DNA of 64,000 nt, taken from assembly GCA_000720535.1 (NCBI GenBank), contig JOAZ01000014.1:1-64000 (forward strand). Reading direction: 5' to 3'. The translations under genes and the position numbers were made by a program. Every line of letters starts with the position of its first letter. Positions within the stretch are counted from its first letter, which is position 1. The stretch comes from Streptomyces halstedii (lineage in GTDB: Bacteria; Actinomycetota; Actinomycetes; Streptomycetales; Streptomycetaceae). Shown one piece after another: positions 1 through 15,009 of this stretch. The notes under the pieces are model-generated. The model was not told the DNA's origin. It worked only from the letters and a program-made list of their open reading frames with translations, and ran no database searches.

Positions 1-50
1 AGGCCTCCGTGCGGTGAAGAATTCGACACCTCCACCACACACGGAGGCCT
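1..50. other. Stem-loop at the window edge
   Basis: Positions 1-11 (AGGCCTCCGTG) are the exact reverse complement of 40-50, so an 11-bp stem with a 28-nt loop can form. No long T tract follows. The window begins here, so the upstream gene is unseen. It could be a terminator or an attenuator-type hairpin. Between 51 and 100 I see no convincing gene. Confidence 0.3.
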
Positions 51-100
51 TCGCCATGATCAAGCCCGATCGGCGTTAACAACGCTCGTGATCAATACAT

Positions 101-217
101 CTAGGGCGTGTTTCGAACGTAGCGCCGTCCGCCCAAAGGGCGGGGCCCGCGGCGTCCGGTGCGTGCGATCGCAAGGCGGAGGATCGCCCTCGTACTGGAC
201 GTACGTGGGCGACTCCG
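101..217. repeat. 117-bp dispersed repeat element, copy 1
   Basis: This block matches 33691-33807 in the same orientation with 6 mismatches over 117 bases. It begins with CTAGGGCGTG and contains the pairing arms GCCC-CGTAC / GTACG-GGGC near 188-212. It lies wholly inside the 3' end of the alpha/beta hydrolase gene and encodes that protein's last 38 residues and its TAG stop. No transposase is present, so it looks like a non-autonomous, REP/MITE-like intergenic repeat. I cannot name its family. Confidence 0.8.
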
Positions 218-1084
218 ACAACGCGGCGAGCGTGCCGGGAGGAGCGGCCGGGTGAGGAAGTCGGCCACCAGGGCCGCGACCTCGTCGGACCGCTCCAGCA
301 CAACCCAGTGGTCGGACTCGGGCAGGGTGAGGAAGCGGCTGCCCTCGATCGTGGCCGCGAACTCCCGTTGCCGCTCCGGTGAGGTGACCGTGTCGTGCTC
401 ACCCGCGAAGACCAGCGCCGGTACGCCCGACAGCCCGCCGGTGAACTCCGGACGGTCCCCCAGGGCCCGGTGCAGCGAGTCCACGGTGTGCGGGGAGTCG
501 CCGCGCAGGGCGTGCAGGAAGGAGCGCCGGACGTAGCGGCGGGCCAGCTCTCCACGGTGGACGGGGCGGTCGGGGTCCAGGCACATCAGGCCGTCGGCGG
601 CGAGCGCCGCGAACCCTTCCTGGTCGCCCTCGGCGAGGCGTTCGGCGGCCCGTCGCCAGTACGCGCGCTGCGCCTCCCCGATGTGGACGGGGACACCGCC
701 CAGGACCAGGCGGGCGACACGTGCGGGGGCGTGCCGGGCCCAGCCGAAGGCGATGGCCGCGCCGTAGGAGAAGCCGAAGAGGTTGATCCGGGGGGCGCCG
801 AGGTCGTCCACGATCGCGGTGACCGCGTCGCGCAGGACCCCGGCCGCGGGGCCGGGCGGCAGGGGGTCGGCGGTGCCCATGCCGGGCAGGTCGGCGGTGA
901 CCACGTCGGTCAGCGGGCCGAGGTGCTCGTCCATCTGCGGCCAGCCGTACATGCCTTGCAGGGCGCCGCCGAGGACGAGGACGGGTTCGGTCGCGGCGGG
1001 CTCGTTCCGGCCGTCGCGGGGCAGGACCCGGTAGCTGTACCGCACCCCGTGGACGGCCAGCGACCGGATGATCTCCTGGGTCAT
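101..1084 (-). CDS. Alpha/beta hydrolase of the ACP-ketosynthase operon
   Basis: A 327-residue alpha/beta-fold hydrolase. The nucleophile elbow GFSYGA lies near residue 105, an oxyanion-loop-like GGAL near 39, an acid-loop GEHDTVTSP near 228, and the catalytic His in SDHWVV near 258. It follows the ketosynthase on the same strand with an 18-bp gap, so it probably acts on an acyl-ACP or product of that pair, as a thioesterase or cyclase; that role is inferred. The last 38 residues are Arg/Pro-rich, come from the dispersed repeat at 101-217, and are unlikely to be part of the fold. Start ATG at 1084 with an upstream GAGG. Confidence 0.8.
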   Translation of the reverse strand: MTQEIIRSLAVHGVRYSYRVLPRDGRNEPAATEPVLVLGGALQGMYGWPQMDEHLGPLTDVVTADLPGMGTADPLPPGPAAGVLRDAVTAIVDDLGAPRINLFGFSYGAAIAFGWARHAPARVARLVLGGVPVHIGEAQRAYWRRAAERLAEGDQEGFAALAADGLMCLDPDRPVHRGELARRYVRRSFLHALRGDSPHTVDSLHRALGDRPEFTGGLSGVPALVFAGEHDTVTSPERQREFAATIEGSRFLTLPESDHWVVLERSDEVAALVADFLTRPLLPARSPRCRSRPRTSSTRAILRLAIARTGRRGPRPLGGRRYVRNTP

Positions 1085-1102
1085 GGTGCTTCTCGCCTCC
1101 CG

Positions 1103-2404
1103 TCAGGCCCTGGTGAGGACGAGCGCCGCGTTGTGCCCGCCGAAGCCCAGCGAGGTCTTCACGGCGCAGTCGAACCTGCCGCTCCGGGCCTCCTTGCTCA
1201 CCACGTCGACCGGGATCGCCGGGTCCGGGGCGTCCAGGTTGGCGGTCGGCGGGACCAGTTGGTGCTGGAGCGCGAGGACCGTCAGGGCGGCCTCGATGCC
1301 TCCGGCGGCGCCCAGGGTGTGCCCGGTCATCGCCTTGGTGGAGGTGACGAGAGGGTGCTCGCCCAGGACGCGGTGGAGCATGGTCGCCTCGATGAGGTCG
1401 TTGGCGACGGTCGAGGTGCCGTGGGCGTTGACGTGCCCGATGTCGTCGGGGCCGAGGTCCGCGTCGGCCAGGGCCGTGCGCAGCGCCCGTTCGACACCGA
1501 GTCCGTCGGGGTCGGGGGCGACGGCGGAGTGGGCGTCGCTGGAGGCGCCGTAGCCGGTGACGTGGGCGCGCACGGTGGCACCGCGTGCGCGGGCGTGCTC
1601 GGGGCGCTCCAGGACGAGGAGGCCCGCGCCCTCGCCGACGACGAAGCCGTCCCGGTGGGAGTCGAAGGGCCGGCAGGCGGCCGCGGGGTCGTCGCGTCGG
1701 GTGGAGACGGCCCGCATCTGGCACGCGCTGGCGATGAGGAGCCGGGAGCGGACCGATTCGGCGCCGCCGGCCACGACGATGTCGCAGGCGCCGGCGCGGA
1801 GCATCTGGTGGGCGGTGCCGATGGCGACGGTGCCGGAGGAGCAGGCGGTGGAGACGGCGAGGCTCGGGCCGTGCACCCCCAGGTCCATGGCGACGCTGCT
1901 GGCGGCGCCGTTGACGACGGTGAGCGGGGCGAGCTTCGGGGAGACGCGCCGGGCCCCGCGTTCGGTGAGGGTGGTGTGCTGCTCGTCGTAGAAGGGCAGG
2001 CCGCCGTGGGCGGAGCCGATGACGACGGCGACCCGGCCGCTGTCCCACACCGAGGGGTCGAGACCGGCGTCGGCGACGGCCTCCCGCGCCGCGATCACGG
2101 CGAGCTGCGAGAAGCGGTCCATGAGCCGCTGGGCGGCGACCCCCAGGACGGCCTTCGGGTCGGTGTCGGTGACGGTGTACATGAAGTCGCAGGGAAGCCC
2201 GGCGAGTTCGTCCACGAGGTGGACGGAGGGCGCGGTGGCGAGGTCGCTGACGCCGTGCCAGGCGGCGGCGGCTCCCGTACCGGCGGCGGTGACCAGGCCG
2301 ATGCCGGTGACGGCGGCGGCGAACGGTCCGGCTCCCCGGCGGGCGGCGACCGGCCCGGCCGCCCGGTCGGCGGAGCCGCGCGTGCGGGGCACCGGGGCCG
2401 TCAC
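1103..2404 (-). CDS. Beta-ketoacyl-ACP synthase (KAS II / FabF-type)
   Basis: A 433-residue condensing enzyme. The catalytic Cys is in STACSSG, and the two active-site His are in NAHGTST and STKAMTGHT, so the Cys-His-His triad of elongating ketosynthases is complete. The C-terminal GFGGHNAAL signature is present. The GTG start at 2404 overlaps the TGA of the ACP gene (GTGA), which implies translational coupling. No malonyl transferase, ketoreductase or dehydratase is seen next to it. It is therefore either a minimal polyketide/fatty-acyl module borrowing housekeeping enzymes or part of a locus beyond the window edge. Product unknown. Confidence 0.88.
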   Translation of the reverse strand: MTAPVPRTRGSADRAAGPVAARRGAGPFAAAVTGIGLVTAAGTGAAAAWHGVSDLATAPSVHLVDELAGLPCDFMYTVTDTDPKAVLGVAAQRLMDRFSQLAVIAAREAVADAGLDPSVWDSGRVAVVIGSAHGGLPFYDEQHTTLTERGARRVSPKLAPLTVVNGAASSVAMDLGVHGPSLAVSTACSSGTVAIGTAHQMLRAGACDIVVAGGAESVRSRLLIASACQMRAVSTRRDDPAAACRPFDSHRDGFVVGEGAGLLVLERPEHARARGATVRAHVTGYGASSDAHSAVAPDPDGLGVERALRTALADADLGPDDIGHVNAHGTSTVANDLIEATMLHRVLGEHPLVTSTKAMTGHTLGAAGGIEAALTVLALQHQLVPPTANLDAPDPAIPVDVVSKEARSGRFDCAVKTSLGFGGHNAALVLTRA

Positions 2405-2634
2405 GCGCCGGCCTTGCTGTGCACCGCGGCGACCAGATGGCCGAGGGTGTCGCGCGAGCTCAGGACGATGTCGTCCAGGTCGATGTCCAGCCGGTCCTCG
2501 ATGAGCAGCCTGAGCTCCTCCAGGGCGAGCGAGTCCAGGCTCAGCTGACGCAGCGGCACCTCGGGCCGGATGGCCGCGGGGTCCGTGCCGAACCTGCTGA
2601 CGAGCAAGGCGTTGATCTCTTCCGAGGTACTCAT
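2401..2634 (-). CDS. Acyl carrier protein
   Basis: A 77-residue acidic ACP. The phosphopantetheine attachment Ser is in LSLDSLALEEL (about residue 34), and the length is normal for a freestanding ACP. It is first in the ACP-ketosynthase-hydrolase operon. The ATG at 2634 is preceded by AGGAG at good spacing. A TATAAA -10 box lies on the minus strand at 2731-2726, about 90 bp upstream, without a clear -35. It probably carries the acyl chain extended by the adjoining KAS. Confidence 0.88.
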   Translation of the reverse strand: MSTSEEINALLVSRFGTDPAAIRPEVPLRQLSLDSLALEELRLLIEDRLDIDLDDIVLSSRDTLGHLVAAVHSKAGA

Positions 2635-2895
2635 GCGACGCTCCTGAGCTCTCGTACGCGGTGACGCCGGCCGCGTGGGGTGGGGGCGGGGGCCGTCGGG
2701 GGCGCCGGCTGCTCCGGAGGCACCCTTTATACGCCTTCACGGCCGGGTTTCCGTGCCGCGTTCCCCCGGGAGGAGGGGACCCCGACCAGGTGTGCGAATC
2801 CACGGCGACGCCGGGTGGGGGTGGGGGCTCGATTCCGGGCCGGGCCCGCCCCAACTCCGTTCGGGTGAAGTCGATTTGGACACGCCGAGACATCA

Positions 2896-2924
2896 TTGTC
2901 ATGCCCAAATCACACGGATAGCCT
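2896..2924 (+). promoter_or_regulatory. Putative promoter of the cell-wall amidase gene
   Basis: TTGTCA (2896-2901), a 17-nt spacer, and TAGCCT (2919-2924) resemble a HrdB-type promoter. A start near 2931 would give a leader of roughly 70 nt. This is the best candidate in the 365-bp divergent gap between the ACP and amidase genes; the rest of the gap shows no gene. Confidence 0.35.
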
Positions 2925-2999
2925 GCTCGGGCTCGACGGCCCTCGGCCCACCCCACCCGGTCCGGGGGCCTTCCCCTCCCCCACGAACCTGGAGCAGGT

Positions 3000-4556
3000 A
3001 TGCCCCGACCCCCCGCCGGCCACACCGCGAGACGCCCGGCCGCCCTGGCCGCCCTCACCGTCTCGGCCCTGGTCGCCACCGTCTCCCCCGCTCCCGCCGC
3101 CCCCGGCACCCCACCCGATCCGATGAACCGTGCGTTCACGCGGGCCGCCGCGGCCTACGGCGTACCGCGCGACCTGCTCGCCGCCGTCGGTTACGGCGAG
3201 ACCCACCTGGACGGGCACTCCGGCCGCCCCAGCCAGGCGGGCGGCTACGGGGTGATGCACCTGGTCAGCAACCCCGTGAACCACTCCCTGGAGAAGGCCG
3301 CCCAGCTGACCGGCGAGACACCGGCCGAACTGCGCCAGGACACCGAGGCCAACATCCTGGGCGGCGCCGCCGTCCTGCGCAGCCACGCCGACGCGCTCGG
3401 CCTGGACGGGGACGAGCGCGCCGACATCGACGCCTGGTACCCGGCCGTCGCCCGCTACAGCGGCGCCGAGGGCCCGGTCGCCGCGCTCTACGCGGACACC
3501 GTGTACACCTTCCTGGCCCAAGGGCTGCACACCACGGTGGCGGGCGGCGAGCGGATCGCCGTGACCTCGCGTCCGGTCGCCCCGGAGAAGGGGGCCCTGG
3601 CCTCGGCGGACGTCACCGCGCAGAGCACCGACTACCCTCCGGCCCTCTGGGTGCCGGCCGCCTCCGCCAACTACGCGACGGGCCGGTCGGCGACGGTCGA
3701 CAAGGTGGTCGTGCACGTCACGCAGGGCTCGTACGCGGGCACCATCAGCTGGTTCCAGAACGCCGCGTCGCAGGTCAGCTCCCACTACGTGGTCCGTTCC
3801 TCGGACGGCCAGATCACCCAGATGGTGCGTGACAAGGACACCGCCTACCACGCCAAGAGCGCCAACTCCTCGTCGCTGGGCATCGAGCACGAGGGGTTCG
3901 TCGACGACCCGTCGTGGTTCACCGACCCGATGTACCGCTCGTCCGCCGCCCTGACCGCCCATCTCTGTGACCACTACGGCATCCCCAAGGACCGGTCGCA
4001 CGTCATCGGGCACAGCGAGGCCCCGGGCAACGACCACACCGACCCGGGAGCCAACTGGAACTGGACCTACTACATGCAGCTCGTCGGCGGGGCCGCCGGC
4101 TCCGGCAGCGGGAGCGACGAGCTGAGCTTCGGGGCGTACGACACCCAGAAGACGGGTTCCGCGGGCGACCAGGTGAAGGCGCTCCAGCGGCTCCTGGACA
4201 ACCAGGGGTACGAGCCGGGGACCGTGGACGGCCTCTTCGGGCCCGCCACCAGGAGCGCGGTGCGGGCGTTCCAGACCGTGCGCGGACTCCCGGCCGACGG
4301 CACGGTCGGCGCGAGGACCTGGACGGCGCTGCTGTCGGCCGGGACCACCCCCGCGCTCTCCCAGGGCAGTTCGGGTGACGCGGTGAAGCGGCTCCAGCGG
4401 GCACTGACGGCCGCGCTCGGCTCGACGCTGGCGGTGGACGGGTCGTTCGGCCCGGCGACGGGCACGGCGGTGCGCGACTACCAGAGGGCCCGCGGGCTGA
4501 CCGTGGACGGGAGCGTGGGGACCGGCACCTGGACGGCCCTGCAGTCCGGCCGCTGA
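3000..4556 (+). CDS. Secreted N-acetylmuramoyl-L-alanine amidase with two peptidoglycan-binding domains
   Basis: A 518-residue exported wall hydrolase. Residues 1-35 form a signal peptide with an Ala-rich cleavage region. Residues about 40-180 resemble a lysozyme/transglycosylase-like fold (GYGETH, GGYGVMHLV). Residues about 220-360 are an Amidase_2 (T7-lysozyme-like) domain with its zinc-type His at VVHVT and GHSEAPGNDHTDPG. Two PG_binding_1 repeats follow (QVKALQRLLDNQGY, AVKRLQRALTAALG), each with the usual DGLFGPAT / DGSFGPAT signature. It should cleave the amide between MurNAc and the stem peptide outside the membrane. It is monocistronic. Start ATG at 3000 with GGAGCAGG upstream. Confidence 0.9.
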   Translation: MPRPPAGHTARRPAALAALTVSALVATVSPAPAAPGTPPDPMNRAFTRAAAAYGVPRDLLAAVGYGETHLDGHSGRPSQAGGYGVMHLVSNPVNHSLEKAAQLTGETPAELRQDTEANILGGAAVLRSHADALGLDGDERADIDAWYPAVARYSGAEGPVAALYADTVYTFLAQGLHTTVAGGERIAVTSRPVAPEKGALASADVTAQSTDYPPALWVPAASANYATGRSATVDKVVVHVTQGSYAGTISWFQNAASQVSSHYVVRSSDGQITQMVRDKDTAYHAKSANSSSLGIEHEGFVDDPSWFTDPMYRSSAALTAHLCDHYGIPKDRSHVIGHSEAPGNDHTDPGANWNWTYYMQLVGGAAGSGSGSDELSFGAYDTQKTGSAGDQVKALQRLLDNQGYEPGTVDGLFGPATRSAVRAFQTVRGLPADGTVGARTWTALLSAGTTPALSQGSSGDAVKRLQRALTAALGSTLAVDGSFGPATGTAVRDYQRARGLTVDGSVGTGTWTALQSGR

Positions 4557-4780
4557 CGCCTCGTCAGGTCCTCACGACCGGGCTCAGACCGACCACGCGG
4601 GCCTCGGCGTTCACCTTCCGGGACGCCCGGCCGCCGCCCCGGCGTAGGCGCCGGCCTGACCGCCCGTACGCTCCGGAGCGCACCGGCCGGGTGCGGGTAC
4701 GCCTTCCCCGGGGCATCGCCGCCGGACGATCCTGGGTCCCGCCGGCACACCGGCCGGCCGGATCCAGGGGGCGGTAGGGC

Positions 4781-4951
4781 ATGGCACGTACGCAGCCGAC
4801 ATGCGGGGCACCCACGCGGAAGGGCACCCGCTGCGCGCGGCTGGCCATGGTGGGGGCGTCCCGGTGCGACCGGCACCGGGGCGACTGGTCGACGTACACC
4901 GTGGAGCGGCGCAAGGCGCGGGAGCGCGCGGACAGGAGGCGCCACGGGTAG
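4781..4951 (+). CDS. Small Cys/His-rich protein (56 aa)
   Basis: A short ORF that reads as a real protein. It begins MARTQPTCGAPTRKGTRC, and Cys8, Cys18, Cys29 and His32 are spaced C-x9-C-x10-C-x2-H. This resembles the small CGAxTRKGxxC...RCxxH zinc-binding motif found in many short bacterial and phage proteins. A basic, helical Arg/Lys-rich tail follows. A GGGGGCGG stretch lies about 10 nt before the ATG. Function unknown; nucleic-acid binding would fit the composition. It is the only credible gene between 4557 and 5360. Confidence 0.5.
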   Translation: MARTQPTCGAPTRKGTRCARLAMVGASRCDRHRGDWSTYTVERRKARERADRRRHG

Positions 4952-5025
4952 CCGGGCGGCCAGGCGGCACGGGCGGCCGGCCGCGCCGGTCGGCCCAGGC
5001 GCCACGGGCGGCCAGGCGCCACGGG
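4938..5025. repeat. Short GC-rich repeats
   Basis: GGCGCCACGGG occurs at 4938, 4998 and 5015 within a nearly A/T-free stretch rich in GGCCGG and GGCGG. The first copy overlaps the 3' end of the small Cys/His ORF. This looks like slippage-prone low-complexity DNA. The longer ORFs readable here are composition artefacts. Confidence 0.5.
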
Positions 5026-5176
5026 CCGCGCCGGTAGCGACGGCGGTGCCCCTGGCCGGGGCGGCCGGCCGCCCCGGCCCGCCCGCACCCCGCCGGGGCG
5101 TCTTCCGGCCGTGTCGCGCGCGTCCGGAACGGGGCCGGGGCCGGGGCGTCACGTTTCGGTAACCTCCTGGAAACCC

Positions 5177-5206
5177 TTGACGTTTCTCGTCACGCGTTCC
5201 TAATCT
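5177..5206 (+). promoter_or_regulatory. Strong sigma-70-type promoter of the transporter-kinase operon
   Basis: TTGACG (5177-5182), an 18-nt spacer, and TAATCT (5201-5206) form one of the closest matches to the HrdB consensus in this window. Transcription would start near 5213 and give a leader of about 148 nt before the ATG at 5361. Just upstream, GTTTC (5154-5158) and GAAAC (5169-5173) make an interrupted inverted repeat that could be an operator. Confidence 0.6.
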
Positions 5207-5240
5207 CACTGCGTAGTCCCGCATTTCAGCAGTTCACGTG

Positions 5241-5317
5241 CTGCGGCGCTTTCCGCAGTGTTTTGACAGGCACAGACATAGACCACCTGTCGGTGGTTTC
5301 GTCATGCCTGTTTTTTT
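5241..5317 (+). terminator. Leader hairpins with T tract: candidate regulated terminator
   Basis: The leader holds two structures. CTGCGG (5241-5246) pairs with CCGCAG (5253-5258). Then ACAGGCA (5266-5272) pairs perfectly with TGCCTGT (5305-5311), enclosing GAC/GTC and an ACCACC-TGTC-GGTGGT inner hairpin (5282-5297), and runs directly into seven T (5311-5317). A stem followed by a T run is rare in DNA this GC-rich. It sits 44 bp before the first gene of an operon that encodes a GlpP-type antiterminator. The natural inference is conditional termination of the operon. Confidence 0.6.
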
Positions 5318-5360
5318 GTGCTCCCCGTGCCACCGATGGGTCCTCCTCGAAGGCGGATTC

Positions 5361-6818
5361 ATGGCACAACGTCCGAGCGTCAAAGGCGTCGCCGACGTCG
5401 TTGGGCTCATCGATGGGCTGGGTAAGATCACCGGCCGGGCGCAGGTCATCTGGTTCCTGGTATTCGGTGGACTGTTCCTCGACGCCTATTCGAACGCGGC
5501 GCTGAGCGCCGGTCTGGGACCGATGACGTCCCAGATGGAGCTCACCAGCACACAGGTGTCGGTCCTCACGGCCACCGCCCCGGCCCTGGCGATCCTCTTC
5601 AACCCGATAGGCGGCTGGCTCGCCACCCGGATCGGCCGGGTGCCGCCGCTGCTGCTCGCCAAGGCCTTCGCCATCGCGGGCGCCCTGATCGCCGCGTTCG
5701 CCGACGACTTCGGCGTCGTCTGGGTCGGCCGGGTGCTGGTCGGCGTCGCCTACGGCATCGACTTCGCCGTCGCCATGGCGCTGCTGGCCGAGTACACGCC
5801 CGCCAAGCTGGGCGGCCGGCTGAACCTGTGGCAGGCCGTCTGGTACGTCGCCACCACCAGCAACCTCGCGCTCGCCCTGCTCTTCTTCAACCTGGACGTC
5901 GGCGCGGACATCTGGCGCTGGTCGGTCGGTTCGGCGGCCGTCGTCGCGGTCCTGCTGCTGGTGGGCCAGTGGACGATGCTCAAGGAGAGTCCCACCTGGC
6001 TGGCCGGGAAGGGCCGGCTGGACGAGGCGGTCGCCAACCTGGACGCGATCTACGGGATCAAGGCCGTCGCCGGCCGGCCCGACGCCGCCACCCTGGCCGC
6101 CTCCGCCGCGCCCGCCATCGGGTTCCGTCACGCCGGGGTGCTGTTCAAGGGCGACTACCTGCCGCGCACGATCCTGTCCTCGGTGATCTCGCTCGGGCAG
6201 TCGATGCAGTACTTCGCGGTGGGCTGGTACCTCCCGCTGATCAGCCTGACGATCTTCGGCGAGAGCTTCGAGAAGGCCACCATCGGCTCGATGGTCTTCA
6301 ACGCCTTCGGTATCGCGGGCGGTCTGCTCTCCGCGTACTTCGGACGCCGCCTGGGGCTGCGGCTCAGCTCCGCGGCCGGATTCGCGGGGGTCTTCGTCGC
6401 GCTGCTCGCGATGGGCCTCACCTTCGAGAAGGTCCCGACCGCGGTGGCGTTCCTGCTGCCGGTGCTCTTCATCCTGTGCCACTCCACGGGGCCCGGCGCC
6501 AACGGCAAGTCCATCGCCGCGCTGTCGTACAGCAGTGACGTGCGCGCACTGGGCACCGGGGTCACCGGCATGGTGGGCAGCTTCGGCTCGGTCGCCGGGC
6601 TGTATCTGTTCCCGCAGATCAAGGACTCGCTGGGGCTCGCCGACACCTTCCTGGTGCTCTCCGTCGTCCCGCTGCTCGGCATGATCACCTGCCTGGCGAT
6701 CAAGTGGGATCCGATGAAGGCCGACAGGTCCCCCGACGAGGCCGCCGCCGACGCGCTCGCGTCCGCCGGCGCCCCCGGCGCACTGCCGGACACCGCGAAG
6801 GCCACGACCGCGCGCTGA
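5361..6818 (+). CDS. MFS transporter, sugar/polyol-porter type
   Basis: A 485-residue major facilitator with about 12 hydrophobic segments. After the second segment it carries GGWLATRIGR, the family loop motif, and VGRVLVGVAYGID, as in the sugar-porter branch. The central cytoplasmic loop contains the SPTWLAGKGRLDEA signature. It is first in the operon and presumably imports the compound handled by the downstream kinase and dehydrogenases. Start ATG at 5361 follows GAAGGCGG. An in-frame ATG at 5304 lies inside the leader hairpin and is less likely. The substrate cannot be read from sequence. Confidence 0.85.
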   Translation: MAQRPSVKGVADVVGLIDGLGKITGRAQVIWFLVFGGLFLDAYSNAALSAGLGPMTSQMELTSTQVSVLTATAPALAILFNPIGGWLATRIGRVPPLLLAKAFAIAGALIAAFADDFGVVWVGRVLVGVAYGIDFAVAMALLAEYTPAKLGGRLNLWQAVWYVATTSNLALALLFFNLDVGADIWRWSVGSAAVVAVLLLVGQWTMLKESPTWLAGKGRLDEAVANLDAIYGIKAVAGRPDAATLAASAAPAIGFRHAGVLFKGDYLPRTILSSVISLGQSMQYFAVGWYLPLISLTIFGESFEKATIGSMVFNAFGIAGGLLSAYFGRRLGLRLSSAAGFAGVFVALLAMGLTFEKVPTAVAFLLPVLFILCHSTGPGANGKSIAALSYSSDVRALGTGVTGMVGSFGSVAGLYLFPQIKDSLGLADTFLVLSVVPLLGMITCLAIKWDPMKADRSPDEAAADALASAGAPGALPDTAKATTAR

Positions 6819-6899
6819 CCGCTCCCGGGACCCGCGCCCCCGCACGATGGTCCCCCTCCCCCTCCGTACCGCTCGCTTGCTCGCGATGAAAGGGCCGCA

Positions 6900-8477
6900 A
6901 TGACGCAGACCTTCCCCGGCGCCGCCCCACGGCGCGGTGTGCTGGCCATCGACGAGGGCACCACGGGCACCCGGGCCGGTGTCGTCCTCGACTCCGGCGC
7001 CGCCCACGAGGTGTTCTACCGGCCGATCAAGGTCAGCCATCCGGACGACCTCTCCGTCGAGCAGGACCCGATGGAGATCTGGACCGCCACGCTGGACGTG
7101 GCGCGCCGGGCCGTCGGGCGGGCCCGGGAGGACGGCATCGCCGTCACCTCGGTCGCCCTGTCCACCCAGCGGGCCACCGCGATGCTCTGGGACCGGGTGA
7201 CCGGCCGGCCGCTGCTGCCCGCCGTGGTGTGGCAGGACCGGCGGTACGCCGCCGAGCTGACCGCGTACGAGACGGAGTGGGACGCCGTCCTGCTGGCCCG
7301 GCAGGGGCGGCCCGTGGGGGCCCGCGCCCCGTTCCTCTGGGCCGCCCGGCAGATCGCCACGCACCCGGAGGCCGCCGAGGCGCACCGGGCCGGGCGGCTG
7401 CTCTTCGGCACCGTGGACACCTGGCTGATCTGGCGGCTGACCGGCGGGGCGGTGCACGCCACCACCCCCACCAACGCCGCCTCCAGCGGCGGGTACCTGC
7501 TCACGGAGCACGCCTGGGACGAGGAGTGGATCGGCCGGCTCGGCCTCCCCCTCGACCTGCTGCCCGAACTGCGGTCCGACGACGCCGGGTTCGGTACGAC
7601 GGACCCGGCCGCCCTCGGCATCGCCGTCCCGCTGGCCGCCTCGATGGGCGACCAGCACGCGGCCCTGGTCGCGCTCGGCGGGCTCACCGCAGGGCAGGGC
7701 ATGGTCATGTACGGGACCGGCGCCTTCGTGGACGCCGCCACCGGCACCGTGCCCGCCCTGCCCCGGCCGGACATCTCCGGGGTGCTCGCCCAGCCCGGCC
7801 GGCGGCAGGGCGGCACCAGCCACTACAGCCTGGAGGCCTACACCTCCACGGCGGGTTCGGCGATGCGCTGGCTCTGCGACGACCTGGGCCTGTTCGCCTC
7901 GCCGAAGGAGCTCGGTGAGGAGGCGGGCCGGGTCCCCACCCGGCCGGGCCGCACCCCGCGTTTCGTGCCCTCGCTCGCGGGGGTACGGACGCCGGTCTGG
8001 CACCCGGAGTCCACCGCCGCCCTCACCGGGCTCACCCTCGCCACCACCCGCGCCGACCTGGCCCGCGCCGTCCTCGACGGGATCGCGCACTCCGTGTGCG
8101 ACCTGATCGACGGCATCGCGGACACCATGGGCGGACCGTTCACCCGGCTGCGGCTGGGCGGCGGGGTCTCCGGCAGCGACCCGCTCATGCAGATCCAGGC
8201 CGACCTGACCGGACTGGAGCTGGAGCGGGTCGCCGACTCGGCCACCGCGAGCCTGCGCGGCACCGCCTATCTGGCCGGGACCGCCCAGGGGCTGTGGTCC
8301 TCGCTCGACGAGGTCGTCGAGGCCCAGCCGCACGGCCGTGTCTTCCGCCCCTCCGTCTCCCGGGCCGAGCGCACCGCGCAACGCGCCGCCTGGCGGGACG
8401 TCCTCATCGCCCATCTGGGGGACCCGGAGCTGCGCCCGTACGGCGCGCCCGGCTCTCCGCCGCACACCCCCCACTGA
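6900..8477 (+). CDS. FGGY-family carbohydrate kinase, glycerol-kinase-like with altered pocket
   Basis: A 525-residue two-domain kinase close to glycerol kinase overall: DEGTTGTR at the N-terminal phosphate loop, GTVDTWLIWRLTGG, GDQHAAL with the catalytic-base Asp, and a late GGGVSGSD ATP-site loop. Two glycerol-contacting positions differ. E. coli GlpK has NQRETT (Arg83-Glu84) and a Tyr in YFSGTK; here they read TQRATA and a Pro/Gly-rich stretch without Tyr. The substrate is therefore probably a related polyol, not glycerol. Its product would feed the GlpD-like dehydrogenase that follows. Start ATG at 6900 with GAAAGGG upstream. Confidence 0.83.
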   Translation: MTQTFPGAAPRRGVLAIDEGTTGTRAGVVLDSGAAHEVFYRPIKVSHPDDLSVEQDPMEIWTATLDVARRAVGRAREDGIAVTSVALSTQRATAMLWDRVTGRPLLPAVVWQDRRYAAELTAYETEWDAVLLARQGRPVGARAPFLWAARQIATHPEAAEAHRAGRLLFGTVDTWLIWRLTGGAVHATTPTNAASSGGYLLTEHAWDEEWIGRLGLPLDLLPELRSDDAGFGTTDPAALGIAVPLAASMGDQHAALVALGGLTAGQGMVMYGTGAFVDAATGTVPALPRPDISGVLAQPGRRQGGTSHYSLEAYTSTAGSAMRWLCDDLGLFASPKELGEEAGRVPTRPGRTPRFVPSLAGVRTPVWHPESTAALTGLTLATTRADLARAVLDGIAHSVCDLIDGIADTMGGPFTRLRLGGGVSGSDPLMQIQADLTGLELERVADSATASLRGTAYLAGTAQGLWSSLDEVVEAQPHGRVFRPSVSRAERTAQRAAWRDVLIAHLGDPELRPYGAPGSPPHTPH

Positions 8478-8554
8478 CGGCGCCCTCACCGCCGCCCGGC
8501 GGCCGGCCACCCGACCACACGGCCGCCGCACCCGAAACACCAGGAGTTGATGTC

Positions 8555-10228
8555 GTGATCACCTTGCCCGCCCGGAAACCCCGGAGCAGCGCCGCGGCCA
8601 CCCGCCGCACCCCCTTGCTGCTGGACCGTCAGGCGCTCAAGCGCCGGCTGGCCGACGACACGTACGACGTGGTCGTCATCGGCGGCGGCATCACCGGTGC
8701 GTACGCCGTGCTGGACGCCGTCTCGCGCGGGCTGCGCGCGGCGCTGGTCGAGAAGGACGACTTCGCGTCCGGCACCTCGTCGAAGTCCTCGAAGATGGTG
8801 CACGGCGGTCTGCGCTACATCGAGCAGGGCAACGTCAACCTCGTACGCCACTCGCTGCTGGAGCGGCACCGCTTCCGCAAGAACGCCCCGCACCTGGTGC
8901 ACCGGCTGCCGTTCCTCTTCCCGGTCCTGGAGAAGGAGGGGGTCTTCGACGCCCGCCTCGCCAAGGGCTTCGAGGGCCTGCTGTGGACGTACGACCTGGT
9001 CGGCGGCTGGCGGATAGGCAAGCTGCACCAGCGGCTCACCGTCCCCGAGGTGCTCGCCCAGGCGCCGACCCTGCGCGCGGAGAACCTCAAGGGCGGGCTG
9101 GTGTACTTCGACGCCCGCACCGACGACGCGCGCCTGGTGCTGACCGTCGTGCGGACCGCCGCCGCGCTCGGCGCGACCGTGCTCAACGGGGCGAAGGCCG
9201 AGGGGCTGCTGACGCGGGCGGGCCGGGTGTCCGGAGCGCGGGTGTCGGTGGACGGCGACCTGATCGACATCCGGTCCCGGGCCGTCGTCAACGCGACCGG
9301 GGTGTGGACCGACGAGCTGGACGCGAAGGCCGACGAGGGCCACCGCCCGCAGGTCCGTCCCGCCAAGGGTGTGCACATCGTGGTGCCGTGGGAGAAGGTG
9401 CGGATCAACTGCACCGTCACCGTGCCGATCCCGGGCCGGGCCCGCCGCGCGACCTGCACCCGCTGGGGCGACCGTGTGGTGCTGGGCACCACGGACGAGG
9501 ACTACCAGGGTTCCCCGGACGACGTGCACTGCACCCGCCGGGAGATGGAGTTCCTGCTGGAGGGCGCCAACACCGCGTTCGAGGGCACGCTCACCGAGGA
9601 CGACGTGGTCGGCTCGATCGGCGGGCTGCGGCCGCTGGTCGGCGGCAAGGAGGGCGCGACCCTCGACATGCGCCGCGACCACCACATCACCATCGGCCGC
9701 ACCGGCATGGTGACGGTGACCGGCGGCAAGCTCACCACCAGCAGGCACATGGGCGAACTGGTCATCGACAAGGTGATGACCGTGCTCGGCCGCAAGGCGT
9801 CCAGCCGCACCGCGAAGCTCCCGCTGCTCGGCGGCGCGGGGTACGACGCGGAGGCCGTCGCCGCCTCGGGCGGCCTCGCCGCGCACCTGGGCGAGCGCTA
9901 CGGCACGGAGGCCCGGTTCGTCGGCGACCTGATCCAGGAGGACCCGTCGCTGGCCGAACCGGTCGTCGCCGGACTCCCCTACACCCGCGCGGAGGTCGTC
10001 TACGCGGTCCGCGCGGAGCTGGCCCGGTCGGTCGACGACGTCCTCTCCCGCCGGCTGCGCGCCCGCCTGTTCGCCCGGGACGCGTCCGCCGACGCGGCCG
10101 AGGCCGTCGGCGCGGTCCTCGGCCGCGAACTGAACCTCCCGGACGCCGAGGTGGAGCGCTCCGTCTCCGCGTACCTCGCCTCCGTCCGCCACGAAAAGTC
10201 CGTACTCCTCGAAAGGACAGCAGCATGA
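8555..10228 (+). CDS. GlpD-like FAD-dependent glycerol-3-phosphate dehydrogenase family protein
   Basis: A 557-residue flavoprotein of the GlpD/GlpA family. The dinucleotide-binding motif VVIGGGITGAYA is near residue 33. The family signature GTSSKSSKMVHGGLRYIEQGN follows, and GGKLTTSRHMG near residue 395 marks the second FAD contact. A C-terminal DAO_C helical domain is present. It should oxidise a polyol phosphate to the keto phosphate at the membrane. Start GTG at 8555 lies 8 nt after AGGAG; an ATG at 8550 stops at once. Its stop overlaps the next start (ATGA). The kinase upstream suggests its substrate is a non-glycerol polyol phosphate; this is inferred. Confidence 0.82.
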   Translation: MITLPARKPRSSAAATRRTPLLLDRQALKRRLADDTYDVVVIGGGITGAYAVLDAVSRGLRAALVEKDDFASGTSSKSSKMVHGGLRYIEQGNVNLVRHSLLERHRFRKNAPHLVHRLPFLFPVLEKEGVFDARLAKGFEGLLWTYDLVGGWRIGKLHQRLTVPEVLAQAPTLRAENLKGGLVYFDARTDDARLVLTVVRTAAALGATVLNGAKAEGLLTRAGRVSGARVSVDGDLIDIRSRAVVNATGVWTDELDAKADEGHRPQVRPAKGVHIVVPWEKVRINCTVTVPIPGRARRATCTRWGDRVVLGTTDEDYQGSPDDVHCTRREMEFLLEGANTAFEGTLTEDDVVGSIGGLRPLVGGKEGATLDMRRDHHITIGRTGMVTVTGGKLTTSRHMGELVIDKVMTVLGRKASSRTAKLPLLGGAGYDAEAVAASGGLAAHLGERYGTEARFVGDLIQEDPSLAEPVVAGLPYTRAEVVYAVRAELARSVDDVLSRRLRARLFARDASADAAEAVGAVLGRELNLPDAEVERSVSAYLASVRHEKSVLLERTAA

Positions 10229-11778
10229 TCAGCCGTCAGACCATCACCCACCCGTTCAACCGGGGCGACTACACGATCGGCGCCCCGAGTTTCGCCAAGT
10301 GGGCCCGGAACACGCCGGTCGGTGACGGCGAGGCCGCTCTCCAGAGCGATCCCGTCGAGGTCCCCGAAGCCGTCGTGGAGGCGCTGCGCGAGGCCGCGCA
10401 CGCCGTGCACACCACCCGTGAGGAGGTCGTCACCCGGACCCGCGACTGGTGGGCGGGCTCGATGATCGGCGAGACCGAGGGCCGCCCGGCGACCCCGGAC
10501 GCGGTGGTCGTGGAGGCGGTGGACGCCGACCAAGTCGCGGCCGTGCTGCGGATCTGCCACGCGGCCGGCGTCCCGGTCACCCCCTCCGCGGGCCGTTCCA
10601 ACGTGACCGGTGCGGCGCTCCCCGTCTTCGGCGGGGTGGTGCTGGACGTCTGCGGGCTGAACCGCATAACCGCCTTCGACGCCGAGTCGAACGTCGTCAG
10701 CGTCGAGGCCGGCATGTTCGGCGACCTGTTCGAGAAGCAGTTGCAGGAGGAGTACGGCGTCACCACGGGCCACTGGCCCTCGGCGTTCGCGGTCTCCACG
10801 GTCGGCGGCTGGATCGCCTGCCGCGGTGCCGGCCAGCTCTCCACCCGGTACGGGAAGATCGAGGACATGGTCGTCGGCGTGGACGTCGTCCACGCGGACG
10901 GCACCCGCGCCACCTACGGCGACTACGCCCGCGCCGCGGTCGGCCCGGACCTGCGCCAGCTGTTCGTGGGCTCCGAGGGCACCCTCGGCGTCATCGTCTC
11001 GGCGCGGCTGCGCGTGCACCCGCTGCCGACGTACGCCAAGGCGGTGGCCTTCGGCTTCGAGAGCTTCGCGGAGGGCCTGGACGCCTGCCGGAAGATCATG
11101 CGGCGGGGCGCGACCCCGGCCGTGCTGCGCCTGTACGACGCGCTGGAGTCGGGCACCCACTTCGGTCACCCCGGGACCAACCTGCTGCTGATCGCGGACG
11201 AGGGCGACCCGGCGATCGTGGACGCCTCGATCTCGGTGGCCACCGAGGTCTGCTCCGCGTACGGCCCCGAGCTGGACAGCGACGCGGTCTTCACCCGCTG
11301 GCTGGACGAGCGGATGCTCGTCGGCAAGTCGGCGGACGGCTTCACCCCGGGCCCGGGTTTCGTCGCGGACACCCTGGAGATGGCCGCGTCCTGGGCCGAC
11401 CTCCCGGTGATCTACGACGAGGTGGTCGCCGCGATCCAGTCCGTGGACGGGACGCTCGCCGCCTCCGCCCACCAGTCGCACGCCTACACCGACGGCGCCT
11501 GCGTCTACTTCTCGCTGCGCGGTGAGGTGGCGCCGGAGTCCCGCCGCGACTGGTACCGGGCGGTGTGGGACGCGGCCAACGCCGTGCTGATCAGGCACCG
11601 GGCGGCCCTCAGCCACCACCACGGCTGCGGTCTGCTGCGCGGCCCCTACCTGGAGGAATCCCTCGGGGCCGGGTTCGCGACGTTCGTCGCCGTCAAGGAC
11701 GCCCTGGACCCGGCCGGCATCCTCAACCCTGGCAAACTGGGACTCCCCAGCCGATTCGGTACGTCTCCGCTGAACTGA
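10225..11778 (+). CDS. FAD-linked oxidase, alkyl-dihydroxyacetone-phosphate synthase-like
   Basis: A 517-residue FAD_binding_4 / FAD-oxidase_C protein. The PCMH-type FAD domain carries VTPSAGRSNVTGA, STVGGWIACRGAGQ and GSEGTLGVI. The C-terminus has ALSHHHGCGLLR and ALDPAGILNPGKLG, matching the His-rich active-site block of the ether-lipid enzyme AGPS. Members either exchange the acyl of acyl-DHAP for an alkyl chain or oxidise 2-hydroxy acids. In this operon it could make or break an ether or hydroxy-acid bond on a DHAP-like intermediate. The start overlaps the previous stop, so the genes are translationally coupled. Confidence 0.8.
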   Translation: MISRQTITHPFNRGDYTIGAPSFAKWARNTPVGDGEAALQSDPVEVPEAVVEALREAAHAVHTTREEVVTRTRDWWAGSMIGETEGRPATPDAVVVEAVDADQVAAVLRICHAAGVPVTPSAGRSNVTGAALPVFGGVVLDVCGLNRITAFDAESNVVSVEAGMFGDLFEKQLQEEYGVTTGHWPSAFAVSTVGGWIACRGAGQLSTRYGKIEDMVVGVDVVHADGTRATYGDYARAAVGPDLRQLFVGSEGTLGVIVSARLRVHPLPTYAKAVAFGFESFAEGLDACRKIMRRGATPAVLRLYDALESGTHFGHPGTNLLLIADEGDPAIVDASISVATEVCSAYGPELDSDAVFTRWLDERMLVGKSADGFTPGPGFVADTLEMAASWADLPVIYDEVVAAIQSVDGTLAASAHQSHAYTDGACVYFSLRGEVAPESRRDWYRAVWDAANAVLIRHRAALSHHHGCGLLRGPYLEESLGAGFATFVAVKDALDPAGILNPGKLGLPSRFGTSPLN

Positions 11779-11818
11779 CCCAGCACCGGCCGCACCCCTT
11801 CACCAGGCAGGCTTCGCC

Positions 11819-12478
11819 ATGACCCACTCCCCGTCCCGGTTCGGCCGGCCGCTCGATCCCCGGCTGGCCTCGGCGTTCGCCGAGGTCCCGGTGATCGCGT
11901 CGGTCGTCGGTACGCAGCCGCTGCGGCAGTTCCTCACGGCTCCGGCCAGGGGATGCATCCTCGCGTCGTTCGCCGTGGGGCAACTGCCCCAGGTGGTCCC
12001 GGCGTTGGGACGGGCGGGCAAGCTCGTGTTCGTGAACGTCGACAGCAGCCCCGGTCTGGCACAGGACCGGGGCGCGCTGGAGTTCATCAAGAACATGGGC
12101 GCCCACGGGGTGGTCAGCACCCGGCTTTCGCTCATAGAGAAGGGCCGGCCCCTCGGCCTGCTCACGATGATGAAGGTGTTCGTCACCGACCGGTCCAACC
12201 TGCGCCGCTCCACGGACGCGATCTCGCGCGGCGCACCCGACCTGGTCGAGATCATGCCCGCGCCGATCGTCGGCCGGATGACCGCGCAGGCCCAGCGCGC
12301 GATGTCCCCGTCGGTCGCCGCGGGCTTCGTGGAGAGCGCCGCCGACGTGGCGCTGGCGCTGGCCCTCGGCTCGGCCGCGGCCGCCACCTCCGATCCCCGC
12401 CTGTGGCACCTGCGCCGGGACCAGCTGCCGCCGGTCCCGCCCTCCGCCCTCAACAGGCCCGCACCACCCCAGGAGTAG
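11819..12478 (+). CDS. GlpP-family glycerol-3-phosphate-responsive antiterminator
   Basis: A 219-residue protein of the GlpP family, a TIM-barrel-like regulator. In Bacillus, GlpP binds glycerol-3-phosphate and allows read-through of a leader terminator. The pattern is intact: PVIASVVG near the N-terminus, FVNVDSSPGLAQD, GVVSTRLSLIEKG, VFVTDRSNLRR and PDLVEIMPAPIVG. It lies fifth in the operon whose leader contains a terminator-like hairpin at 5266-5317. Autogenous control by the phosphorylated substrate is the obvious hypothesis. Start ATG at 11819. Confidence 0.8.
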   Translation: MTHSPSRFGRPLDPRLASAFAEVPVIASVVGTQPLRQFLTAPARGCILASFAVGQLPQVVPALGRAGKLVFVNVDSSPGLAQDRGALEFIKNMGAHGVVSTRLSLIEKGRPLGLLTMMKVFVTDRSNLRRSTDAISRGAPDLVEIMPAPIVGRMTAQAQRAMSPSVAAGFVESAADVALALALGSAAAATSDPRLWHLRRDQLPPVPPSALNRPAPPQE

Positions 12479-12483
12479 TCCCC

Positions 12484-12786
12484 GTGACGTACGTAGTCGT
12501 CGCCCGTTACCGCACCAGGCCCGGGGAGCAGGACACCGTCCTGCCCCTCCTCGACACCATGGCGGCCGCCTCCCGCCGGGAGCCGGGCAACCTCGCCTAC
12601 CGGGTCCACCAAGGTGCCGAGGACCCCCGGACCGTCCTCCTGTACGAGGAGTACGCCACCGAGGCGGACTTCACCGCGCACTGCGCCACCGAGCACTTCC
12701 GGGAGATCGTGCTCGGCCAGGTCGTCCCGCTGCTGGAGAGCCGCGACGTGCTGCGCTGCGCGCCGCGCGCGGAGGTGGGGGCGTGA
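12484..12786 (+). CDS. ABM-domain monooxygenase (antibiotic biosynthesis monooxygenase family)
   Basis: A 100-residue single ABM domain, a ferredoxin-like fold. It shows the usual YVVVARYRTRPG start and TVLLYEEYATEADFTAH middle. Members are cofactor-free oxygenases, haem-degrading enzymes or dehydratase-like proteins, so the reaction here is unknown. GTG start at 12484 with AGGAG 8 nt upstream inside the previous gene end. It overlaps the alcohol dehydrogenase start by 4 bp (GTGA), which ties both to the same operon. Confidence 0.75.
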   Translation: MTYVVVARYRTRPGEQDTVLPLLDTMAAASRREPGNLAYRVHQGAEDPRTVLLYEEYATEADFTAHCATEHFREIVLGQVVPLLESRDVLRCAPRAEVGA

Positions 12787-13919
12787 AGACGCGGGCCGCC
12801 GTGCTGCGCGGGACGTCCGTCTCCCGCCCGTACTCCGCGACCCGCCCCGTCGAGGTGGAGGAACTGTCCCTCGGGGCGCCGCGCGAGGGCGAGGTGCTGG
12901 TCCGGATAGCGGCGGCCTCCCTGTGCCACTCCGATCTCTCGGTGGTCAACGGCGACCGGGTCCGCCCGCTGCCGATGGCGCTGGGACACGAGGCGGTGGG
13001 CGTCGTCGAGGAGACCGGCCCGGGTGTCCGCCGGTTCGCTGCGGGTGACCATGTGGCCCTGGTCTTCGTGCCGAGCTGCGGCTTCTGCCGGGACTGCGCG
13101 GCGGGCAGGCCGGCGCTCTGCGAGCGCGCGGCCGCGGCGAACGGTTCGGGCGGGCTGCTGCACGGCCCCTCCCTCCTGACGGACGCCTCGGGCGCACCGG
13201 TCCACCATCAGCTGGGGGTGTCCGCGTTCTCCGAACACGCCGTCCTGGCCCAGGAGTCGCTGGTGCCGATACCGAAGGACGTGCCGTTCGCCGTCGCGTC
13301 GATGTTCGGCTGCGCGGTGCTCACGGGCGCGGGCGCGGTGATCAACACGGCGTCGGTGCGCCCCGGGGAGTCGGTCGTGGTGTACGGCCTGGGCGGTGTG
13401 GGCCTGTCGGCCGTCCTGGGCGCCCGTGCGGCCGGAGCGTACCCGGTCGTGGCGGTGGACCCGGTCCCGGAGAAGCGTGAACTGGCCCTGCGGCTGGGGG
13501 CGTCGCACGCGTTCACCCCCGAGGAGGCCGGGGCCGTCCGCGAACTGACCGGGGGCGGCGCCGGGGTGGCGGTGGAGGCGGTGGGCAGCCCGAAGGTGAT
13601 GGCCGACGCCCTGTCGGCGGTCGCCCGGGGCGGCCGGGTCGTCTCGGTGGGGCTGCCGGCCCCGGACCGGGTGCTGGAGGTCCCCGCCCTGGCCTTCGCG
13701 GGTGAGGGCAAGTCACTGATCGGCTCGTACATGGGTGACGCGGTGCCGCGCCGGGACATCCCGCGCTTCCTGGAACTGTGGCGGGCGGGCCTGATGCCGG
13801 TGGAGCTGATGCACACCGGCACGCTGCCGCTCGCGGACGTCAACACCGCGCTGGAGGAGCTGGCTTCGGGCCGGGCGATCCGTCAGGTGCTCGACACCTC
13901 GGTCCTGTCGGCGGCCTGA
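12783..13919 (+). CDS. Zinc-dependent alcohol dehydrogenase (class III-like MDR)
   Basis: A 378-residue medium-chain dehydrogenase. The catalytic zinc ligands are Cys in ASLCHSD and the GHE motif (LGHEAVG). A structural zinc lobe with four Cys is present (CGFCRDCAAGRPALC). The Rossmann motif GLGGVGLSAVLGA binds NAD(P). It is last in the seven-gene operon and probably oxidises or reduces an alcohol/aldehyde released by the upstream enzymes. GTG start at 12783 coupled to the ABM gene. Confidence 0.85.
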   Translation: MKTRAAVLRGTSVSRPYSATRPVEVEELSLGAPREGEVLVRIAAASLCHSDLSVVNGDRVRPLPMALGHEAVGVVEETGPGVRRFAAGDHVALVFVPSCGFCRDCAAGRPALCERAAAANGSGGLLHGPSLLTDASGAPVHHQLGVSAFSEHAVLAQESLVPIPKDVPFAVASMFGCAVLTGAGAVINTASVRPGESVVVYGLGGVGLSAVLGARAAGAYPVVAVDPVPEKRELALRLGASHAFTPEEAGAVRELTGGGAGVAVEAVGSPKVMADALSAVARGGRVVSVGLPAPDRVLEVPALAFAGEGKSLIGSYMGDAVPRRDIPRFLELWRAGLMPVELMHTGTLPLADVNTALEELASGRAIRQVLDTSVLSAA

Positions 13920-14010
13920 GCGGTCACCTCCGCCGGGGGCCCGGGGCGGGGCCGCCTTCCGTACGTCCCGGCCCGGCGGGGGCGGCGCGCCGCTCCCGTC
14001 CGGGCGTGCC

Positions 14011-14026
14011 CTGTGACATGTCACAG
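14011..14026. promoter_or_regulatory. Perfect palindrome CTGTGACATGTCACAG, copy 1
   Basis: A 16-bp perfect dyad containing TGTGACATG on both strands, the same core found at the hydroxyproline/collagenase promoters (36942, 41858, 44020). It could be a GntR-type operator. As RNA it could instead form a 6-bp stem with a CATG loop, but there is no T tract for termination. Confidence 0.5.
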
Positions 14027-14133
14027 GTCCTGGGTGGAGCCGCCTTCCGTACCGGCGCGGCGGGGCGGGGCGGGGCGGCCCGGCACTGCCCGGCCGGGAC
14101 CGCGCCGGCGCGCCGCGCCCACCCCGGCGTGCC

Positions 14134-14149
14134 CTGTGACATGTCACAG
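14134..14149. promoter_or_regulatory. Perfect palindrome CTGTGACATGTCACAG, copy 2
   Basis: Identical to 14011-14026, 123 bp downstream, and also preceded by GGCGTGCC. Paired operators at this spacing could allow looping, but the location between two 3' ends is unusual for an operator. The 14150-14238 remainder shows no feature. Confidence 0.5.
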
Positions 14150-14238
14150 CCCGGCCGAAGGGGAGCCGCCAGGGCCTCCGGCCGACGGGGCGAGGTGCCG
14201 TGGCCTGCGTCGTGGAGCCCCCCTCCCCCGGGGAGGGC

Positions 14239-15009
14239 TCACGGCACCGCGCCGGGGGCGGTCGCGGTTGTGCGGTCCGCGTCGTACGCCGCACGCCAGC
14301 TCTCCCAGATCCCCGTCAACTCCCGTTCCACAGCCGGGGCATGGGTGTCCAGCAGCCGGACCTGCGCGCCGGGTCCGGCCAGGTCCATGCGGGAGGGGTG
14401 GGGCGGTCCACCGGGGTCGGCGCCCAGGGCGGTGACGGCGCCGACGACCCGGTGCGGGCCCAGGATGCCGGGGAGTTCGCGTACGTCCGGGTCGGTGAGG
14501 TCCAGGTCCTCGACCAGCAGTTCCCGGCCGTCGTGGACCGCCCGGGTGGTGGCCCTCATCCGGCCGCCCCGTTCGCCGGAGCGGCCGAGGACCAGGGTGT
14601 CGCGCCACAGCATCCGGGCGCCGGGGGCCAGGGTGACGTCCATCGCGCGGGTCACGCTGGCACCCGAGGAGACCACGAACGGCCGTGACTCCCACGTCAG
14701 TTCGCCGCCCTCGGCGACCTCGACCTCGGCCCGCCACGCGGACGTGCCGCCCCGGTGGTCGTAGGCGACGAGTCCGGCCGGTTCCACGACGTGCAGCCGG
14801 GACCCCGGACCCACGGTGATCCGGATCCGCAGGTCGTCGCCCGCCAGGAGGCCCGCCGTGGTACCGACCAGGGCGATGTGGAGGCCGTCGGCGGCCGGCA
14901 GCAGGGGGCGCGGGGCGAGGAAGGTGCCGGGGGCCAGTTCGCCGGCCGCGTCCCGGCCCGAGGCGTCACGGTGGACCGTGACGACGGTCGGTACGTCGTG
15001 ACGGGTCAC
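14239..15009 (-). CDS. ureD: Urease accessory protein UreD
   Basis: A 256-residue UreD/UreH family scaffold, which recruits UreF and UreG to apo-urease for nickel insertion. Family features are the early LLPAADG-type strand and the [19 protein letters not shown]-like pattern (here [19 protein letters not shown]). [14 protein letters not shown] with its conserved GR-GE block follows. Last gene of the operon. GTG start at 15009 overlaps the ureG stop (GTGA). Confidence 0.85.

Follow-up and report, generated by a model that had tools for sequence, protein, structure and literature searches.

A conserved leader element with competing hairpins ahead of glpP-containing operons in Streptomyces halstedii and other bacteria

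The closest described counterpart of the locus considered here is found in Bacillus subtilis, where GlpP disrupts terminators in leader RNAs and controls glpD, glpFK and glpT by antitermination (PMC9604022). The accessible text of a paper on Streptomyces describes the glycerol genes under the repressor GylR and mentions GlpP for B. subtilis only (PMC9732521), and a study of Thermotoga regulons left the GlpP regulon out of its comparative genomics, according to the portion available (PMC3750489). Among the titles and abstract beginnings of the open-access literature, we found no description of a GlpP leader from either Actinobacteria or Proteobacteria.

In this study we analysed a 64,000-nucleotide stretch of Streptomyces halstedii DNA (contig JOAZ01000014.1, positions 1 to 64,000; hereafter the window), in which an operon with its own glpP gene is preceded by a hairpin-bearing leader. 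We consider it probable, at roughly 0.8, that the leader works as a conditional terminator under the control of the GlpP of the same operon. A sequence-only reading had proposed such an autogenous switch as new for Streptomyces. The proposal gains support from conservation of the leader in 97 of 97 cases, from its co-occurrence with one type of glpP and from a competing hairpin, but the arrangement is not specific to Streptomyces.

The operon lies on the forward strand and comprises, in order, genes for an MFS transporter (5361..6818, ATG at 5361; PF00083, E 1.2e-32), an FGGY kinase resembling glycerol kinase (6900..8477), a GlpD-like dehydrogenase (8552..10228, start codon chosen), a FAD-linked oxidase (10225..11778, start codon chosen; PF01565 and PF02913), GlpP, the presumed antiterminator (11819..12478), an ABM-domain protein (12472..12783, frame as scanned; PF03992, E 2.9e-21) and a zinc alcohol dehydrogenase (12783..13919). 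The kinase and the dehydrogenase score below the curated GlpK and GlpD cut-offs, and the substrate may therefore be a polyol other than glycerol. The fifth gene had been called GlpP-like from the letters alone, and it does match PF04309 (E 9.9e-40; 136 bits against a cut-off of 27) over profile positions 1-173 of 173, which places its product in the GlpP family. A profile built from its relatives matches 3kts (E 1.6e-29) and 1vkf; the protein itself belongs to a diverged subgroup, with FVTDRS where 3kts has FMIDSS. Further downstream, positions 17641-17931 match the Rfam family 5_ureB_sRNA just above its cut-off (40.6 against 40 bits), and Pfam gave no match in the frame of that hit.

PF04309 scores above its cut-off in 25 of 392 Streptomyces genomes; at class level, 4 of 394 genomes have such a match, one of them the genome of the window. 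The proteins fall into two subgroups that differ in score (one at about 135-142, the other at about 193-200 bits), context and identity. Type I, which includes the window protein, occurs in 20 of the 25 genomes and type II in six, one genome (G214) having both. The window gene order recurs in 20 of 22 further type-I loci; in two of these 20, L047 and L052, the alcohol dehydrogenase was not found. The contig ends within locus L045. A locus from another family, L063, has the same genes at lower identity. A tblastn search of plasmids matched 35 records, and four of the best five were examined: an Arthrobacter plasmid carries the operon including the alcohol dehydrogenase, and two Cupriavidus plasmids and one Burkholderia plasmid carry the five genes from transporter to GlpP (MFS-FGGY-GlpD-FADox-GlpP). 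The FGGY and FAD-oxidase matches of the Arthrobacter plasmid (L072, 5207-6680 and 8424-9945) each consist of two overlapping pieces, which suggests frameshifts, and the MFS match of the Burkholderia arboris plasmid (L074, 2584-3887) falls into two parts with about 1.1 kb of other sequence between them. When genome contigs were scanned with an alignment of GlpP proteins, 161 relatives came up; the best 80 were kept, and 73 of these loci have the complete five-gene set. Operon and leader element together extend to Arthrobacter, Nocardia, Saccharopolyspora, Burkholderiales, Ochrobactrum/Brucella and Tardiphaga, and the regulator gene lies within an operon of conserved gene order at the orthologous loci. 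Three of four Herbaspirillum loci (L140, L151, L155) have the kinase and GlpP without GlpD and the FAD oxidase, L140 and L151 also having the MFS gene, and all three keep the leader element.

The leader comparison covers 97 sequences, 85 of them distinct: the window, 21 fetched operons and 75 of the 80 contig loci. In all 97, an element reading CAGR-n-AGA-n-AGAC-n-CTGY, or close to it, lies between the promoter region and the first gene, so the hairpin first noticed in the window is conserved upstream of homologous operons. The other five contig loci had no MFS anchor and yielded no leader; three of these (L104, L143, L144) begin inside the operon, L155 has the element (54 bits), and none was found in L082, whose operon is truncated. 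The element is also present in four plasmid loci outside the 97 (L072, L073, L074, L076).

A putative promoter, TTGACG-18-TAATCT, occupies 5177..5206 (TTGACG 5177-5182, TAATCT 5201-5206), and TTGAC with a TAA-type -10 recurs in the orthologous leaders. Both hexamers and the 18-base spacer are as first reported, but the term near-consensus was generous, since TAATCT agrees with TATAAT at three of six positions. A sigma-70 scanner returned no promoter within window positions 1-18000 and so missed this one. Ending two bases before the -35 hexamer is an exact GTCAC-n6-GTAAC-n6-GAAAC (5148..5174), with one match in the window against 0.01 expected, which fits the GlnR box consensus (PMC10704036). 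GTNAC-n6-GAAAC occurs in 15 of the 21 Streptomyces-type leaders of the first set, the window counted, and its recurrence suggests that the operon is under nitrogen control. Downstream of the promoter there is a small hairpin, CTGCGG..CCGCAG (5241..5258), which shows two-sided changes (CTACGG/CCGTAG, CTACGCC/GGCGTAG) among L044, L062 and L064; no counterpart was seen in the L063 leader.

Between promoter and first gene stands a terminator-like hairpin, S1 (5266..5311). Its composite stem is as the sequence-only reading had it: ACAGGCA (5266-5272) and TGCCTGT (5305-5311) enclose ACCACC (5282-5287) and GGTGGT (5292-5297), and the stem runs into seven T (5311..5317), the first of which is part of it. 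The T tract had been judged exceptional, and it is the only run of at least seven T or A in the window, where base frequency at 72.7% GC would give about 0.14 such runs over the two strands together. The short gap from the tract to the ATG at 5361 stands too, with 43 bases instead of the 44 originally counted. The region 5230-5365 folds with a z of -3.56, better than every one of 200 shuffles. A simple terminator scanner did not list S1. A local hairpin around CTGY forms in 96 leaders and L080, in Actinomycetota and Pseudomonadota alike. Its tail has at least four T in eight bases in 17 of 21 hairpins from Actinomycetota versus 8 of 26 from Pseudomonadota, and at least five in 10 of 21 versus 4 of 26, a measure that comes out too low where the fold extends into the tract, as in L063 and L080. 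Given these uneven tails, the RNA may control transcription in some lineages but translation in others. In the window, S1 probably keeps the operon off until GlpP opens the hairpin.

A second predicted hairpin, S2, would provide the means for such opening. Its 5' strand, the A arm GACAGG (5265..5270), pairs with CCTGTC (5286..5291), in a run of seven that includes one flanking T-G pair, around the loop CACAGACATAGACCA (5271..5285) with AGA..AGAC. Our first model of the leader had no S2 and was replaced once the complementarity of CAGR and YCTGY was seen. The A arm pairs with YCTGY in different forms, namely GACAGG/CCTGTC in the window, GCAGAT/ATCTGT in Cupriavidus and GCAGA/TCTGC in Ochrobactrum. 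Among 47 non-redundant leaders, 46 have an S2 run of at least five pairs (mean 6.2 versus 4.7 in shuffles), in a search whose range fell short of the true A arm in L140 and L151; the enclosed stretch is mostly 14-15 bases (13-17) and carries AGA..AGAC. All 46 aligned leaders, which come from two phyla, share the second AGA, the CTG and one G in the A arm without exception. Within CCTGTC, CC belongs to the S1 stem, TGTC forms the S1 loop and all six bases take part in a third pairing described below. Because S2 takes up the S1 loop, part of the S1 stem and, in Streptomyces, the outer 5' strand of S1, the two hairpins are mutually exclusive. As predicted from its strands, S2 has the anatomy of an antiterminator, and its AGA..AGACC loop is the likely site of GlpP.

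The third pairing, S3, joins CTGY and the 3' arm of S1 (strand R, ACCTGTCGGTGG, 5285..5296) to a strand D (CCACCGATGGGT, 5330..5341) ahead of the Shine-Dalgarno region (AAGGCGGA, 5350..5357). S2 and S3 compete for CTGY, and would thus act in sequence or as alternatives. The longest R:D run is at least seven in 94 of the 97 leaders and five in three from Saccharopolyspora, with a mean of 9.3 versus 5.2 in shuffled leaders searched identically; the hand-placed anchor of L080 is one base off in these run statistics and right in the count of pairs over 47 leaders given below. Taken singly, the run has p < 0.05 in 71 of the 85 distinct leaders (0.005 in the window) and is not significant in 14. When R was searched for in the leaders of other classes, runs between phyla were mostly 4-7 with a maximum of 9, against about 8-12 within a class (5 in Saccharopolyspora).

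RNAalifold returned only four pairs on the cross-phylum alignment (A2, from which L085 was left out), two of them with changes on both sides, probably because S1 to S3 compete and MAFFT shifts the register of R between phyla; following this poor yield, R and D were compared by script, without gaps. Depending on the position, 42 to 47 of the 47 non-redundant leaders have a pair at R-1 to R+7, with two-sided changes: TA and CG at R-1, TA, TG and CG at R+3, AT, CG, TG and GT at R+4, AT, GC and GT at R+5, and five pair types at R+7. The paired fraction is 0.803, compared with maxima of 0.743 in 500 between-species swaps of D, a control that favours the observed value since each D was picked as the best for its own R, and 0.495 when the strands were slid. 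A double change is found within a single genus, Herbaspirillum (CTGCAAG/CTTGCAG in L155, CTGTAAG/CTTACAG in L140). The covariation that had been suggested as a check on the leader is thus present, as compensatory changes between R and D across taxa.

The strand that pairs with the Shine-Dalgarno and start region shares bases with D, and in the predicted fold of the window the ribosome site lies inside this hairpin, S4. By complementarity alone S4 is weak (p < 0.05 in 14 of 47 leaders, median 0.11). In the window the fold with S1 and S4 is predicted at -46.6 kcal/mol; forcing S2 gives -31.4 and forcing S3 gives -29.1, a difference of 15 to 18 kcal/mol, which implies that an on state would need protein or kinetics. 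Across 46 leaders with a recognisable Shine-Dalgarno sequence, forcing S3 raises the mean probability that it is unpaired from 0.20 to 0.55, with an increase in 44, and blocking D gives 0.57 versus 0.19 when a control stretch is blocked. For the window itself, the same probability goes from 0.20 to only 0.24 with S3 forced, since a local UCC/GGA hairpin remains in place; most Streptomyces leaders likewise keep a low value. By these predictions, the effect on translation would be strong in Proteobacteria and Arthrobacter but weak in the window. The conserved downstream strand, which can mask the ribosome site, suggests that translation is controlled too, at least in lineages other than this one.

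Type-II GlpP, 28-32% identical to the window protein, has a leader of its own. In five genomes and in S. clavuligerus, an AGTTACT-AGAGACCAGAGAAC-AGTRAC hairpin downstream of glpP overlaps a terminator with five to seven T (L066, L067, L069, L070, L071, L075; diverged in L068). The 24-base motif, with up to three mismatches allowed, occurs in 5 of the 392 genomes, all of type II and all exact, and in the sixth type-II genome (G021) both sides of the stem differ (AGTTGCT/AGCAAC), so that 6 of 6 have an antiterminator/terminator leader. As in the window, the alternative structure is incompatible with the terminator. Both GlpP subgroups therefore face an AGA-rich loop of 14-15 bases on a stem that excludes a terminator, which is the best indirect evidence that this loop is what GlpP would read. 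By eye, AGA-rich strands and terminator-like hairpins were also noticed downstream of glpP on Planococcus (L157, 6503) and Paenibacillus (L160, about 6700) plasmids, and no such element was recognised at the Enterococcus, Peptoclostridium and Vescimonas plasmid loci.

From these strands we infer the following order of events. Without active GlpP, the nascent RNA would fold as S1 and transcription would stop at the T tract; in any RNA that read through, D would fold onto the ribosome site (S4). GlpP, presumably with a phosphorylated polyol from the pathway as its ligand, would hold S2 through the AGA..AGACC loop, and since S2 and S1 cannot coexist, transcription would continue into the operon and more GlpP would be made. 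The freed R strand would then pair with D as S3, which would block refolding of S1 and draw D off the ribosome site, opening it where the local fold allows. Because S1 with S4 is the best fold, off would be the default and GlpP would have to act while the RNA is being made. With glpP as the fifth gene, induction would feed itself, as positive feedback.

The main alternative is that GlpP is chiefly a translational activator: S1 would be no working terminator, GlpP would occupy the 5' arm so that the loop and the 3' arm pair with D and free the ribosome site, and termination in actinobacteria would be secondary. Fewer than four T in eight follow 18 of 26 proteobacterial hairpins, in which the R:D pairing is nevertheless kept, and the gain in Shine-Dalgarno accessibility with S3 forced speaks for the same reading, as does the position of D, 16-30 bases before the start codon in 90 of 97 leaders as assigned by tblastn, an assignment that is wrong or doubtful in some (e.g. 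L098). For the window, this reading must contend with a T7 tract that is unique at 72.7% GC and with an S3 that barely frees the ribosome site, and the second Streptomyces GlpP system has terminators with five to seven T. We therefore regard it as possible but doubtful, and prefer the conditional terminator.

How closely the element and the regulator go together bears on the remaining alternatives. A model of the element (R1), trained on 46 leaders, nine of them from genomes among the 392, gave one match per genome in 21 of the 392 Streptomyces genomes, which are all 20 with type-I glpP and one other (G243). The matches in the nine training genomes arise by construction, and the informative part is the 371 genomes without a match, under filters whose strictness can lose weak ones. 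The three scans of 392 genomes, for PF04309, for R1 and for the 24-base motif, are taken to concern one set, as their genome identifiers agree. G243 has an operon relic on the reverse strand (L168), with promoter, leader and a broken MFS fragment; within the 14 kb examined, no other operon gene was seen. A GlpP search of G243 gave no convincing match (best E 0.2). No second R1 match was found in the window's own genome up to E 10, so the operon seems to be the only target there. A riboswitch or other metabolite-sensing RNA acting without GlpP, with GlpP regulating something else, would also account for a highly conserved RNA with alternative structures. It is nonetheless very improbable, because element and type-I glpP occur together, even at the Herbaspirillum loci without GlpD and the FAD oxidase, and because no Rfam 15 family matches the leader at gathering score or relaxed (5100-5400, up to E 5), nor any of seven related loci at gathering score. 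A plain constitutive attenuator hairpin, or an element that acts on mRNA stability, is the least probable reading of all, as it would have no need of competing pairings with compensatory changes, even if a title cited in PMC9604022 has GlpP and the B. subtilis glpD leader affecting mRNA stability as well.

If the conditional-terminator reading is right, GlpP antitermination, known from B. subtilis, would extend into Actinomycetota and Pseudomonadota, and an RNA family absent from Rfam would be added. A broader version seems to us about evenly balanced: a widespread GlpP-controlled switch that uses shared strands for transcription and translation, with an output shifted by lineage, and a diverged GlpP whose ligand may be some polyol phosphate different from glycerol-3-phosphate. 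The leaders would also offer a natural series, along which one RNA may pass from acting on transcription to acting on translation. Two testable questions follow: (i) which RNA feature GlpP reads, the AGA-rich loop of about 14-15 bases being predicted for two subfamilies; and (ii) whether, by way of a downstream strand, an antiterminator can permit translation as well. The leader also suggests a compact inducible switch for use in Streptomyces.

Antiterminators of the ANTAR and LicT/SacY types involve proteins and RNA motifs not known to be related to those of the GlpP system. They share with the window leader a protein-stabilised RNA hairpin that is exclusive with a terminator (PMC3369931). 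The type-II GlpP leader of the S. clavuligerus plasmid NZ_CP065235 is nearer, having an antiterminator-like AGTTACT/AGTAACT stem with a 14-base AGA-rich loop that overlaps a terminator; it differs in serving the other GlpP subgroup and in lying downstream of glpP ahead of other genes, and a non-systematic look noticed no D strand in it. With the B. subtilis system the window has in common the protein family, a leader terminator just downstream of the promoter and genes for polyol-phosphate metabolism (PMC9604022). Unlike that system, the window has a diverged GlpP subgroup with hosts in Actinomycetota and Pseudomonadota, a D strand that reaches the ribosome site, a difference drawn from the published description of the B. 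subtilis leader, and a glpP gene that is the fifth of the very operon it would control.
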